Positions 40,119 to 43,399 of a stretch of DNA of 64,000 nucleotides are shown piece by piece. The stretch is taken from positions 1,178,001-1,242,000 of the forward strand of contig NZ_AP014569.1 of NCBI RefSeq assembly GCF_000828915.1, read 5' to 3'. A model generated the notes under the pieces. The model was not told the DNA's origin, searched no databases, and saw nothing but the letters and a program-made list of their open reading frames with translations. The stretch is from Serpentinimonas maccroryi (GTDB lineage Bacteria; Pseudomonadota; Gammaproteobacteria; Burkholderiales; Burkholderiaceae_C). A program made the position numbers and the translations under genes. The number at the start of each line of letters is the position of its first letter. The stretch's first letter is position 1.

Positions 40119-40704
40119 GATCGGCCAGCGCGTGGGCGATGGTGCCCAAGTCCACGTACTCGAGCTCGCTGCCCAGCGGCACGCCGCGCGCCAGCCGGGT
40201 CACTTTGATGTCGCGCCCCTTGAGCGCTTGGGAGATCAGGTGCGCGGTGGCTTCGCCTTCGGCGGTGAAACTGGTGGCCAGCACCAGTTCGCGCACCGCA
40301 TCCCCTTGGGCGCCTTGCAGGCGCTCGAGCAGGCGCAACACACCGTTTTCTTGCGGCCCCAGCGCCGCCAGCGGGCCGAGTTTGCCCATGAGCACAAAGT
40401 AGCGCCCTTTGTACACGCCGGTGCGCTCCAGCGCCGCCTGGTCGGCGGGGGTTTCGACCACGCACAGCAGGGTGTCGTCGCGCGCTGGGTCGGTGCAGGT
40501 GGGGCACAGGTCGGCGTCGGTGAAGGTGTAACAGCGCGTGCAATGGCGCAGCTCGGCCACCCCGCGCGTGAGCGCCCGCGCCAGCTCCAGCGCGCCATCG
40601 CGGTCGTGTTGCAGCAGGTGAAAAGCCATGCGCGAGGCTGTCTTGGCCCCCACCCCGGGCAGGCCTTGCAGCGCGCGCAACAGCGACTCGAGCGCTTTGG
40701 CCAT
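40111..40704 (-). CDS. recR: Recombination mediator protein RecR
   Basis: A 197-residue protein that with RecO loads RecA on gapped DNA. An N-terminal helix-hairpin-helix ([20 protein letters not shown]), a four-Cys zinc finger (C55, C58, C67, C70 in [16 protein letters not shown]), and a Toprim domain ([16 protein letters not shown], then [15 protein letters not shown]) are all in place. The length is normal. It is the last gene of the dnaX-ybaB-recR string, a conserved order. Confidence 0.96.
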
Positions 40705-40730
40705 GGGTGTGCCGATCGCGCTTGGCCGAC

Positions 40731-41063
40731 TCAGAAAGGCAGCTTGATGCCGCCGGGCAAGCTGGGCATGCCGGCGCTGAGTTTGCCCAGTTTTTCCTGT
40801 GAATTTTCCTCAACCCGGCGCACAGCGGCGTTGAAGGCAGCAGCGACCAAGTCTTCGAGCATGTCTTTGTCCTCGGCCAGCAGGCTGGGGTCGATGCTGA
40901 CGCGCTTGACGGCGTGCTTGCCGTTCATCACCACCTTGACCAGACCAGCCCCGGATTCGCCCGTGACCTCGAGCGTGGCCAGCTCGTCTTGGGCCTTTTT
41001 CATGTTTTCCTGCATGGCTTGCGCCTGCTTCATCAGGCCGGCCAGTTGTCCTTTGTTGAACAT
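40731..41063 (-). CDS. ybaB: Nucleoid-associated protein YbaB/EbfC
   Basis: A 110-residue dimeric DNA-binding protein. The N-terminal helix ([21 protein letters not shown]) and the central [24 protein letters not shown] strand region are typical. The ATG at 41063 gives the standard N-terminus; a longer in-frame start at 41171 has no family similarity. It lies between dnaX (67 bp upstream) and recR (26 bp downstream), as in many proteobacteria. Confidence 0.95.
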
Positions 41064-41130
41064 GGGTTTCCTTTGTTTGGAGGGGGGATTTGGAAGGGTT
41101 TTGAGGGGATTGTCGCAAACCGCTCGTGGC

Positions 41131-42870
41131 TCAGAGCGCTTGCAAGCTGCCGGGCACGATTTTGCCGCCAAAGTCGCGCAGCATAGACTGCACGAAGGGG
41201 TCTTGCAGCAAGCTGTCGTGCGCGGCTTGCAAACGCGCCTGCGCAGCCGCAGCCGCGCGCTGGGCGGGGGTGTCGTGCGCTGGGGCGATTTCCAGCTCCA
41301 GCCTCACCGCATGCCCAGCCTGCGCCAGCGCCGACTGCAGCCGCTCGCGCGCGCTGCCATTGGCCAGCGCCGCCTGCGCCACGCGCAGCGTCCAGCAGCC
41401 GGGTTCGCGCCGCACCAACTCGGCCTGCAAGGCCAGCTCGCGCGTAAGCGCCGTCACCGCTTCACGCTGCACCAAGTCGCTGACCACACTCTGCCAGAAA
41501 TCGGGCAAAGGGGCTGTGTCGGCGGGGGTTGGGGAGACAGAAGCGCCCGTCGGCTCGGGAGAGGCTGGGCTGGGCACCGGCAGGGGTTGCGCGGCAGGCT
41601 GCAACGTTTCAGGCTCCGCAACTGCAGGGTCGGCAACAAGGCTGAGAGCGGGGCTGGCAGTTGGGATAACAGTTGTGCTGGGGGCAGATGCAGGCAAAGG
41701 TGTCGCAGCCGCCCGCCCCTGCCCCGCCGCATCAAACGGCTCAGCGCTTTTCAGGCTTTTTTTTTCCACCCCTTCGGGCCTGAAGGCCAGCAGCCGCAGC
41801 AGCACCATGTTCAGCGCCGCGTATTCGTCCGGGGCCAGCCCGAGTTCGGCGCGCCCGTGCAGGCACAGGCTATAGAGCAGTTGCGTCTGGTCGGGGGGCA
41901 GCAAAGCCGCCAGGCGGGCGCAGTCGGCGTCTTCGGGGTCGTGGGGCTGCAACTGCGCCGGCACCGCCTGCAGCACCGCCATGCGCTGCAGCAGGCCCAC
42001 CATCTCTTCGAGCGCCGACGCGGCGGCGTAGCCTTGCAGACGCAAGGCCTGCACCGTCTGCACCACGCTGGCGCCGTCTCCGGCGGCCAAGGCTTCAACC
42101 AAGCGCAGCGCATGGCCGCGCTCCACCGCGCCCAGCATCTGGCGCACCGCCGCCTCTTGCAGCTGCCCAGCGCCAAAGGCGATGGCTTGGTCGGTCAGGC
42201 TCAGGGCATCGCGCATCGAGCCGCGCGCGCCGCGTGCCAGCAAGCGCAGCGCACCGGCCTCAAACGGCACCTGCTCGGCCTGCAGCACCTGCTCGAGGTG
42301 CTGCTGCACGGTTGGCGGGGGCATGGGACGCAGGTTGAACTGCAGGCAGCGGCTGAGCACCGTCACCGGCACCTTTTGCGGGTCGGTGGTGGCGAGCACG
42401 AACTTGAGGTAGGCTGGCGGCTCTTCCAGCGTTTTGAGCATGGCGTTGAAGGCGTGCCCGGTGAGCATGTGCACTTCGTCGATCATGAACACCTTGAAAC
42501 GCCCCTGCACCGGCTTATAGACCGCCTGCTCGAGCAGCGCCTGCACCTCATCGACACCGCGATTGGAGGCGGCGTCGAGCTCGGTGTAATCGACGAAGCG
42601 CCCGGCGTCGATCTCGCGGCAGGCCGGGCACTGGCCACAGGGTTCGGCCGTGATACCCCCGGCGCCATCGGGCCCGGTGCAGTTGAGCGATTTGGCCAAG
42701 ATGCGCGACACCGTGGTCTTGCCCACCCCGCGCGTGCCGGTAAACAGGTAGGCGTGGTGCAGGCGCTGGCTGCGCAAGGCGTTGCTCAGCGCTTGCACCA
42801 CGTGCTCTTGGCCCACCATCTGGGCAAAGTTCTGCGGCCGGTATTTGCGGGCCAAAACGAGGTACGACAT
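41131..42870 (-). CDS. dnaX: DNA polymerase III subunits tau and (by slippage) gamma
   Basis: A 579-residue clamp-loader ATPase. Domain I has Walker A GTRGVGKT (45-52), zinc cysteines C64, C78, C81 and C84, the DEVH box MIDEVHML and the SRC motif VLSRCLQF. Domains II-III run to about residue 368. Codons 369-372 read GAA AAA AAA AGC, an A9 run; a slip of one base either way meets a stop within a few codons, giving 376- or 372-residue gamma-like products. The tau-specific part is a Pro/Ala/Thr linker (about 380-450) and a C-terminal domain that would bind DnaB and the polymerase. Confidence 0.97.
41757..41765 (-). other. A9 slippery run in dnaX (candidate programmed slippage)
   Basis: Nine consecutive A residues on the coding strand span codons 369-372. 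One extra A (or -1 frameshift) gives E-K-K-K-P-E-K-R then TGA. One A fewer (or +1) gives E-K-K-A then TGA. A purine-rich AAGGGG stands just upstream. Thermus thermophilus dnaX uses an A9 run for transcriptional slippage, and E. coli dnaX uses A-AAA-AAG for ribosomal frameshifting. Confidence 0.75.
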
Positions 42871-42892
42871 GCGCCCATTCTATTCTCTGGCT

Positions 42893-42898
42893 TACAAT
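42893..42898 (+). promoter_or_regulatory. -10 box of the SRP RNA gene
   Basis: TACAAT ends 7 nt before the point where the long terminal stem of the SRP RNA begins, which is the expected distance to a transcription start. The -35 is poor, with TA-rich sequence around 42876-42885. It is divergent from dnaX. Confidence 0.5.
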
Positions 42899-42904
42899 CA
42901 GACC

Positions 42905-43000
42905 CGACGGGCCTTCCCGCATGGTGAAGCGGCCAACCGGGTCAGGTGGGGAACCAAGCAGCCCTAACTGTGAATCCAGTGCCGGGGTCGAGGCTCGTCA
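42905..43000 (+). ncRNA. ffs: Signal recognition particle RNA (4.5S type)
   Basis: The hallmark apical region GTCAGGTGGGGAACC followed by AAGCAGCC (42941-42963) matches the Ffh-binding hairpin of bacterial SRP RNA. The ends pair: GACGGGCCT (42906-42914) with AGGCTCGTC (42991-42999), nine pairs with one G-U. Inner segments TCCCG/CGGGG and GTGAAG/CTGTGA-like regions extend the rod. Size (about 96 nt) is right for the small bacterial form. Ends are approximate. Confidence 0.85.
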
Positions 43001-43066
43001 CCCCTCATTCTTTCCCGATCCCGCCCCACTTTTTACTGCAGCGACGCAACGACGAGGCAAACCCAC

Positions 43067-43399
43067 ATGGCCAACCCCCTGATCAAGCAAGTCACCGACG
43101 CCAGCTTCGATGCCGACGTAATCAAGTCCTCCTTGCCGGTATTGGTCGATTTTTGGGCCGAGTGGTGTGGCCCCTGCCGCACCGTCGCCCCCATCCTAGA
43201 CGAGCTGGCCACCCACTACAACGGCAAGCTGCAGATCACCAAAATGAACGTCGATGAAAGCCGCCAGGTGCCGGCGCAGTTTGGCATTCGCGGCATCCCG
43301 ACGCTGATGGTATTCAAAGACGGCAAGGTCGCCGCCACCAAGGTGGGTGCCCTCAACAAAGCGCAACTGAGCGCCTTTATCGACTCCAACTTGGCCTGA
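43067..43399 (+). CDS. trxA: Thioredoxin 1
   Basis: A 110-residue thioredoxin. The active site W33-C34-G35-P36-C37 lies in [21 protein letters not shown], the cis-Pro loop is RGIPTLMVF, and the fold is complete. It reduces protein disulfides and is recycled by thioredoxin reductase. The order SRP RNA, trxA, rho matches the frequent trxA-rho neighbourhood of proteobacteria. Confidence 0.97.

Follow-up and report, generated by a model that had tools for sequence, protein, structure and literature searches.

In Thermus thermophilus, dnaX is expressed through programmed transcriptional slippage (Larsen et al. 2000, as described in PMC1088944 and PMC5009743), and in Caulobacter the gamma subunit of the clamp loader is produced by proteolysis of tau (PMC5009743). 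Escherichia coli dnaX carries the −1 ribosomal frameshifting site A_AAA_AAG. A further set of dnaX genes, divided over two open reading frames, forms a GeneTack cluster of 17 genes; a poly-A slippage site is proposed in 12 of them, with a length of ten A's in nine (PMC3711429). Opinion is unsettled on whether bacterial replisomes generally include gamma. According to a 2012 review, most bacteria keep no dnaX frameshift signature and may not make gamma (PMC3290774), and a 2026 review describes gamma as dispensable, yet its loss as affecting UV survival and Pol IV mutagenesis (PMC13220808).

Here, we analyze the dnaX gene within a stretch of 64,000 nucleotides of Serpentinimonas maccroryi DNA (the window). 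Its sense strand contains a run of nine A's (A9) that is, in our judgment, very probably a selected slippage site giving two clamp-loader subunits from one gene. Slippage of this kind is known for dnaX in Thermus; the new part would be a family-wide selected site, present in most of the window's family. A search of the open-licence literature, a scope outside which most subscription papers fall, returned no report of dnaX slippage in this family or in the Comamonadaceae.

The dnaX gene and its predicted products

The gene, the run and the features that define the predicted products are as follows.

41131..42870, minus strand: dnaX, tau subunit of the DNA polymerase III clamp loader (single open reading frame, 579 aa, with Pfam clamp-loader domains)
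41785..42159, minus strand: domain III (PF12169, residues 238-362; Pfam), predicted to be retained in the short product
41757..41765, minus strand: A9 run in the sense strand, proposed slippage site (from sequence and conservation)
41751..41753, minus strand: TGA reached after an A8 or A11 slip, predicted gamma-like products of 372 or 373 aa
41741..41743, minus strand: TGA reached after an A10 or A7 slip, predicted gamma-like products of 376 or 375 aa
41158..41481, minus strand: domain V (PF12170, residues 464-571; Pfam), the polymerase alpha-interacting part, predicted to be missing from the short product

The protein matches E. coli DnaX structures with E = 2.9e-115. A T9 on the plus strand at 41757-41765 is the A9 of the dnaX sense strand, where it spans the last two bases of codon 369 (E369, GAA), the whole of codons 370 and 371 (K370 and K371, both AAA) and the first base of codon 372 (S372, AGC). 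Pfam places the end of domain III at residue 362; alignment with the best E. coli gamma/tau chains extends to residue 366, and the run begins three residues beyond it. The unslipped frame codes for the full tau subunit including domain V. In silico, an mRNA with nine A's yields 579 aa (61.6 kDa), one with eight yields 372 aa (40.3 kDa) and one with ten yields 376 aa (40.9 kDa). The initial annotation of this DNA had placed nine A's at codons 369-372 at the end of domain III, and had predicted a stop after 376 residues for an extra A and after 372 for a missing one; its coordinates and codons proved exact, and both product sizes were reproduced. The short forms would end in EKKA (A8) and in EKKKPEKR (A10).

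According to the proposed mechanism, RNA polymerase would slip on the T9 template and release mRNAs with 8, 10 or 11 A's beside the faithful one with nine. The A9 or A12 mRNA would be translated into tau (579 or 580 aa), and the other mRNAs would soon meet a stop, giving a gamma-like protein of 372-376 aa. Such a protein would retain domains I-III, with the ATPase and lid regions, but not domain V, through which polymerase is bound. If it acts like gamma of E. coli (PMC3290774, PMC13220808), this short form could build clamp loaders without polymerase tethering. Speaking against the mechanism, E. coli RNA polymerase is reported to slip less on A runs than on T runs (PMC6260861).

Downstream of dnaX are open frames resembling ybaB and recR, the same order as in E. 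coli. A bacterial small SRP RNA (RF00169, 59.6 bits) lies divergently at 42906-43002 on the plus strand. A 931-codon open frame at 40132-42927 on the plus strand runs antisense to recR, ybaB and dnaX; most likely it only reflects the G+C richness of the sequence. No consensus match to a promoter or terminator was found across 41400-43100.

Runs of nine in the genomic background

The A9 of dnaX is the sole run of nine in the window, where 0.20 are expected, and at least one such run appeared in 12 of 100 dinucleotide shuffles of the window. Taken alone, the window is thus not decisive, and the run could have arisen there by chance; it is the comparison among relatives that rejects a chance run. 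The 2.62-Mb genome contains five A/T runs of at least nine (seven overlapping 9-mers), and by our reading of the loci only the dnaX run sits well within a gene. Two of the others are terminator-like and a third sits beside a tRNA gene, crossed by open frames of 177 and 361 codons that we take as putatively spurious. The fifth (L266, at G000:C1:586598-586606, outside the window) is an A9 a few codons after the ATG of a 345-codon open frame that, by eye, resembles a nucleotide-sugar enzyme; slippage at this point would change the frame close to its start, which makes the locus a possible second site of slippage or phase variation. Within the 154 distinct dnaX genes with an A9 described below, there are no other A/T runs of eight or more.

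Gene sample and tree

We read 256 dnaX genes from the order, comprising those of the window's family (code f1), the 80 closest named records (most bear the labels of Comamonadaceae genera), and those of other families. The family sample consists of 110 genes, from 109 of the 194 matching genomes, chosen non-randomly with the nearest preferred, plus G330. A further 88 dnaX genes came from other orders of the class, and E. coli K-12 served as a control. The FastTree tree was built on domains I-III of 255 genes; its tips are partly non-independent, as named records overlap coded genomes (for example L011 and L099). Left out were L002 and L005-L007 (other ATPases), L149, L150 and L251 (no usable dnaX) and L160, which has N's in and near the run and an in-frame TGA that we do not trust. 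Six of the 165 genes with eight or more A's were removed as repeats of the same 120-base context.

The run is retained base for base

The initial annotation had named absence of the run from close relatives as a refutation, and had held a run this long unlikely to persist in a GC-rich gene unless selected; the close relatives do carry it. The run is present in both congeners examined, in all 80 of the nearest named records (some of which are also coded genomes) and in 79 of the 110 family genes read; the other 31 are without it. Among the relatives with A9 are Hydrogenophaga pseudoflava (L051) and Ramlibacter ginsenosidimutans (L036). Among genes from other families of the order, it occurs at the same position and phase in 3 of 65. 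On the tree, a family clade with support 100 carries the run in the same codon phase in 160 of its 190 genes (158 with A9, 2 with A10), and within it one clade of 155 genes has the run in every member (153 with A9, 2 with A10). One gene of family f1, L222, falls outside the family clade and is without the run. Among distinct genes, the run's length in this phase is nine (154 genes) or ten (2), and never eight. In a large share of genomes, selection against runs of this kind becomes visible at a length of nine (PMC1088944).

The retention of these A's can be compared with ordinary lysine codons. Elsewhere in the A9 genes, AAA makes up 814 of 2327 lysine codons (35%). The presence of the run changes state five times over the whole tree, two of them within the 190-gene family clade, and eight conserved lysine columns in the same 190 genes undergo 5-48 changes between AAA and AAG; within the 155-gene clade, the counts are zero run losses vs 4-37 AAA/AAG changes. 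The residues beside the two lysines also vary on the tree, with E/Q exchanged 7 times before them and T/S 21 times after them, while the A's of the run stay unchanged. Because these last counts come from 154 rows selected by their A9, they say nothing independent about the run; the zero-change counts were repeated on the clades with all of their tips.

Both shifted frames are closed

The stops that follow the run are conserved along with it. In the frame entered by A8 or A11, a stop occurs within 10 codons in 151 of the 154 distinct A9 genes, and after a single codon in 127. In the frame entered by A10 or A7, a stop occurs within 10 codons in 145 of the 154, mostly after 3-6 codons. At control positions in the same genes, stops within 10 codons are found in 19-25% (A8/A11 frame) and 14-23% (A10/A7 frame) of cases. 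Both frames are closed within 10 codons in 142 of the 154 A9 genes, as in the window, vs none of the 31 family genes that have no A9, read at codon 378. In the remaining 12 A9 genes, one or both shifted frames run on past 10 codons; three of these genes have an A8 frame open for more than 50.

The codons behind the run are consistent with selection on the stop. When CTG lies just downstream of the run, an A follows and creates a TGA in 115 of 117 cases; a CTG elsewhere is followed by A in 15.3%. The rare codon CTA appears after the run 9 times, each time followed by A or G (creating TAA or TAG). In genes with the one-codon stop, the zero frame continues with one of K, N, T, I, S, A or R. The amino acid after CTG varies freely, and therefore the stop, not the residue, seems to be what is kept.

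The run, its conservation and the conserved stops in both shifted frames can be read directly from the genes. From these observations we infer slippage at the run, at whatever rate, its mainly transcriptional nature, and the production and use of gamma. Slippage that yields a truncated product has been called difficult to judge by comparison (PMC1088944), and we suggest the closure of both frames as a sequence signature for transcriptional slippage of this kind.

Alternative explanations for the run and its stops

A short DnaX could also arise by programmed −1 ribosomal frameshifting on A_AAA_AAA, as happens at A_AAA_AAG in E. coli, a reading that we hold to be unlikely. An in-frame A_AAA_AAA does lie inside the A9 run, 145 of 154 genes have a stop within 10 codons in the −1 frame, and only one tRNA-Lys, with anticodon UUU, was seen among the 30 of 40 tRNA loci scanned. 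Moreover, two relatives with A10 (L025 and L032) hold A_AAA_AAG in frame, and L154 and L345 have A_AAA_AAG with a −1 stop after one codon. However, −1 frameshifting leaves unaccounted for both the ninth A and the stops in the other frame (151 of 154, 127 of them after one codon). Read in the same way, E. coli has its −1 stop after one codon and its A-minus-one frame open for 12; in L345, the other frame is open for 13. Because −1 frameshifting needs a stop in one frame only and the A9 genes close both, two-sided closure would fit slippage by RNA polymerase better.

The elements that accompany the E. coli site were also sought. The heptamer A_AAA_AAG is absent from the window and from the 154 A9 genes, which have A_AAA_AAA followed by AC or AG, and the E. 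coli control was positive. Cores resembling a Shine-Dalgarno sequence lie upstream of the run in 11 of the 154, with no excess over the control value of 11.3%; the window has none, and E. coli has GGAG. No E. coli-like hairpin was found in the window, whose folding z-scores at offsets of +0, +5 and +10 are −0.17, −0.30 and −0.53, compared with −2.13, −1.47 and 0.43 for E. coli. Averaged over the 154 A9 genes, the z-score from dinucleotide shuffles is −0.4 to −0.6 near the run vs −0.1 to −0.2 in the gene body (−0.44 at +0, with family means of −0.44 to −0.56), and the raw folding energy at +10 is about 1.1 SD below controls (77 of the 154 genes; G+C is 0.75 there). A folding window starting 30 bases upstream gave z = −1.08 and is not counted, because the A run lies inside it and makes the shuffle biased. 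A conserved stimulatory hairpin was thus not found as such, and the slight excess of folding downstream of the run leans the other way, in favor of frameshifting.

Ribosomes might instead slide in both directions on the A run of a faithful mRNA and end in either shifted frame. Sliding would likewise select stops in both frames, and it has been shown for E. coli ribosomes on poly(A); in the same study, however, truncation was robust at A11 and gave little product at A9 or A10 (PMC4363877), and the dnaX run offers just two successive AAA codons. We regard sliding as the source of the short product as quite improbable, and a ribosomal contribution to slippage at the run as possible.

The run might involve no programming whatsoever, the EKKT or EKKS motif being kept for the protein and its A's reflecting codon bias. 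Adjacent lysines are encoded in all 154 A9 genes, which in part follows from choosing genes by their A9. Against codon bias stand the low share of AAA among lysines elsewhere, the absence of run losses from a clade in which conserved lysines switch repeatedly between AAA and AAG, and the codon after CTG, which swaps its amino acid freely yet keeps the A that makes TGA. Under codon bias, AAG at its ordinary frequency would be expected for the two lysines in the 155-gene clade, and no such members were seen. Codon bias is, on this evidence, extremely improbable. A contingency locus, at which slippage at the DNA level turns tau off in a subpopulation, would draw on the proneness of nine-base runs to replication slippage, but it too has next to no likelihood, as no run-bearing family gene read has the run out of frame (L160, with its N's, being excluded) and tau is essential in E. 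coli, so that off variants should be lost.

Apparent losses of the run and its occurrence beyond the family

Transcriptional slippage at the A9 remains the preferred reading for the genes that carry the run. The two changes of run state within the family clade are read most simply as losses because the early-branching L120 and L218 carry the run, with support of only 75-86 for some of the branches behind this reading. The gene of L120 is an A9 dnaX on a contig of 3,046 bases (G323:C354) that is binned with another family, and on the tree it falls at the base of the clade of the window's family; it is probably family DNA in a foreign bin, through a binning error or contamination. The smaller loss comprises three genes, including L154, which carries A_AAA_AAG instead. 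In a scan of gene bases 1040-1900 of the family genes with no A9, L154 was the only one with a replacement slippery heptamer and a close −1 stop. Its site (G156, codon 379) has the E. coli arrangement with a −1 stop after one codon, and its tree neighbors L146 and L159 have no such site, which would make a switch of mechanism possible in L154.

The initial annotation had also proposed that slippage at the run, of the design known from Thermus, produces gamma. The conserved run and stops speak for this proposal and the 31 of 110 family genes without the run speak against its generality; the choice of a Thermus-like transcriptional mechanism is one that we infer. Since the run is absent from these 31 genes and a replacement heptamer was found in L154 only, a route to gamma by way of the run would be one that can be lost.

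Among 153 genes read from other families of the same class, 15 have 9-10 A's after base 1000 of dnaX, between codons 363 and 519; one of the 15 is L120. Stops within 10 codons end both shifted frames in 13 of them, and in L126 and in L255 one frame runs on for longer. Four of the 15 (L249, L322, L339 and L340) have a G+C content of 0.39-0.48, at which such runs are cheaper. Two genes of family f8, L122 and L126, have their A9 at codons 491 and 519, at another distance from domain III, which suggests an independent origin of the run.

A wider hypothesis can be drawn from these patterns, and we give it an even chance: polymerase slippage at a dnaX A9 would be the ancestral route to gamma in the family, lost twice by parsimony, arisen repeatedly elsewhere and used despite a seemingly single tRNA-Lys(UUU). 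If it is true, then the tRNA-based reason given for Thermus does not apply everywhere, and the view that dnaX in most bacteria has retained no frameshift signature needs revising. Retention of the run base for base in most of the family, together with stops in both frames, would mean that selection maintains a short DnaX, and the apparent losses would provide a natural experiment on gamma, with paired lineages that have and do not have the site.

Comparison with known systems

The end products in Caulobacter are of the same kind as those predicted here and arise with no recoding site; by analogy, proteolysis of the Caulobacter type could act in the family members that have no run. The two-ORF dnaX genes share with the window's dnaX a proposed poly-A slippage site, and differ in that they require recoding to make tau, whereas the window's dnaX gives tau from its unslipped frame.

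In E. coli, the gene, its products and the outcome are the same, tau together with a gamma that lacks domain V, as predicted for the window. The E. coli site, A_AAA_AAG, occupies codons 428-430 and is accompanied by an upstream GGAG and a hairpin, whereas the window has A9 at codons 369-372; unlike E. coli, the A9 genes close both frames and conserve no such stimulators. In its seemingly single tRNA-Lys(UUU), the window's organism resembles E. coli and not Thermus, for which two lysine tRNAs are described (PMC5009743); with only the UUU species seen in the 30 of 40 tRNA loci scanned, the reason for slippage that this pair suggested for Thermus seems not to apply here.

The position of the run also differs from Thermus, being about 64% of the way into the gene here (codon 369 of 579) and seven-eighths of the way in Thermus (PMC1088944). 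A mixed population of mRNAs has been shown for Thermus alone; the Thermus type also has tau and gamma at a ratio of about 1:1. The two genes are nevertheless alike in design: each has a sense-strand run of nine A's, an uninterrupted frame for tau, near stops in both of the other frames, and a shorter second product, which is here predicted from the sequence.
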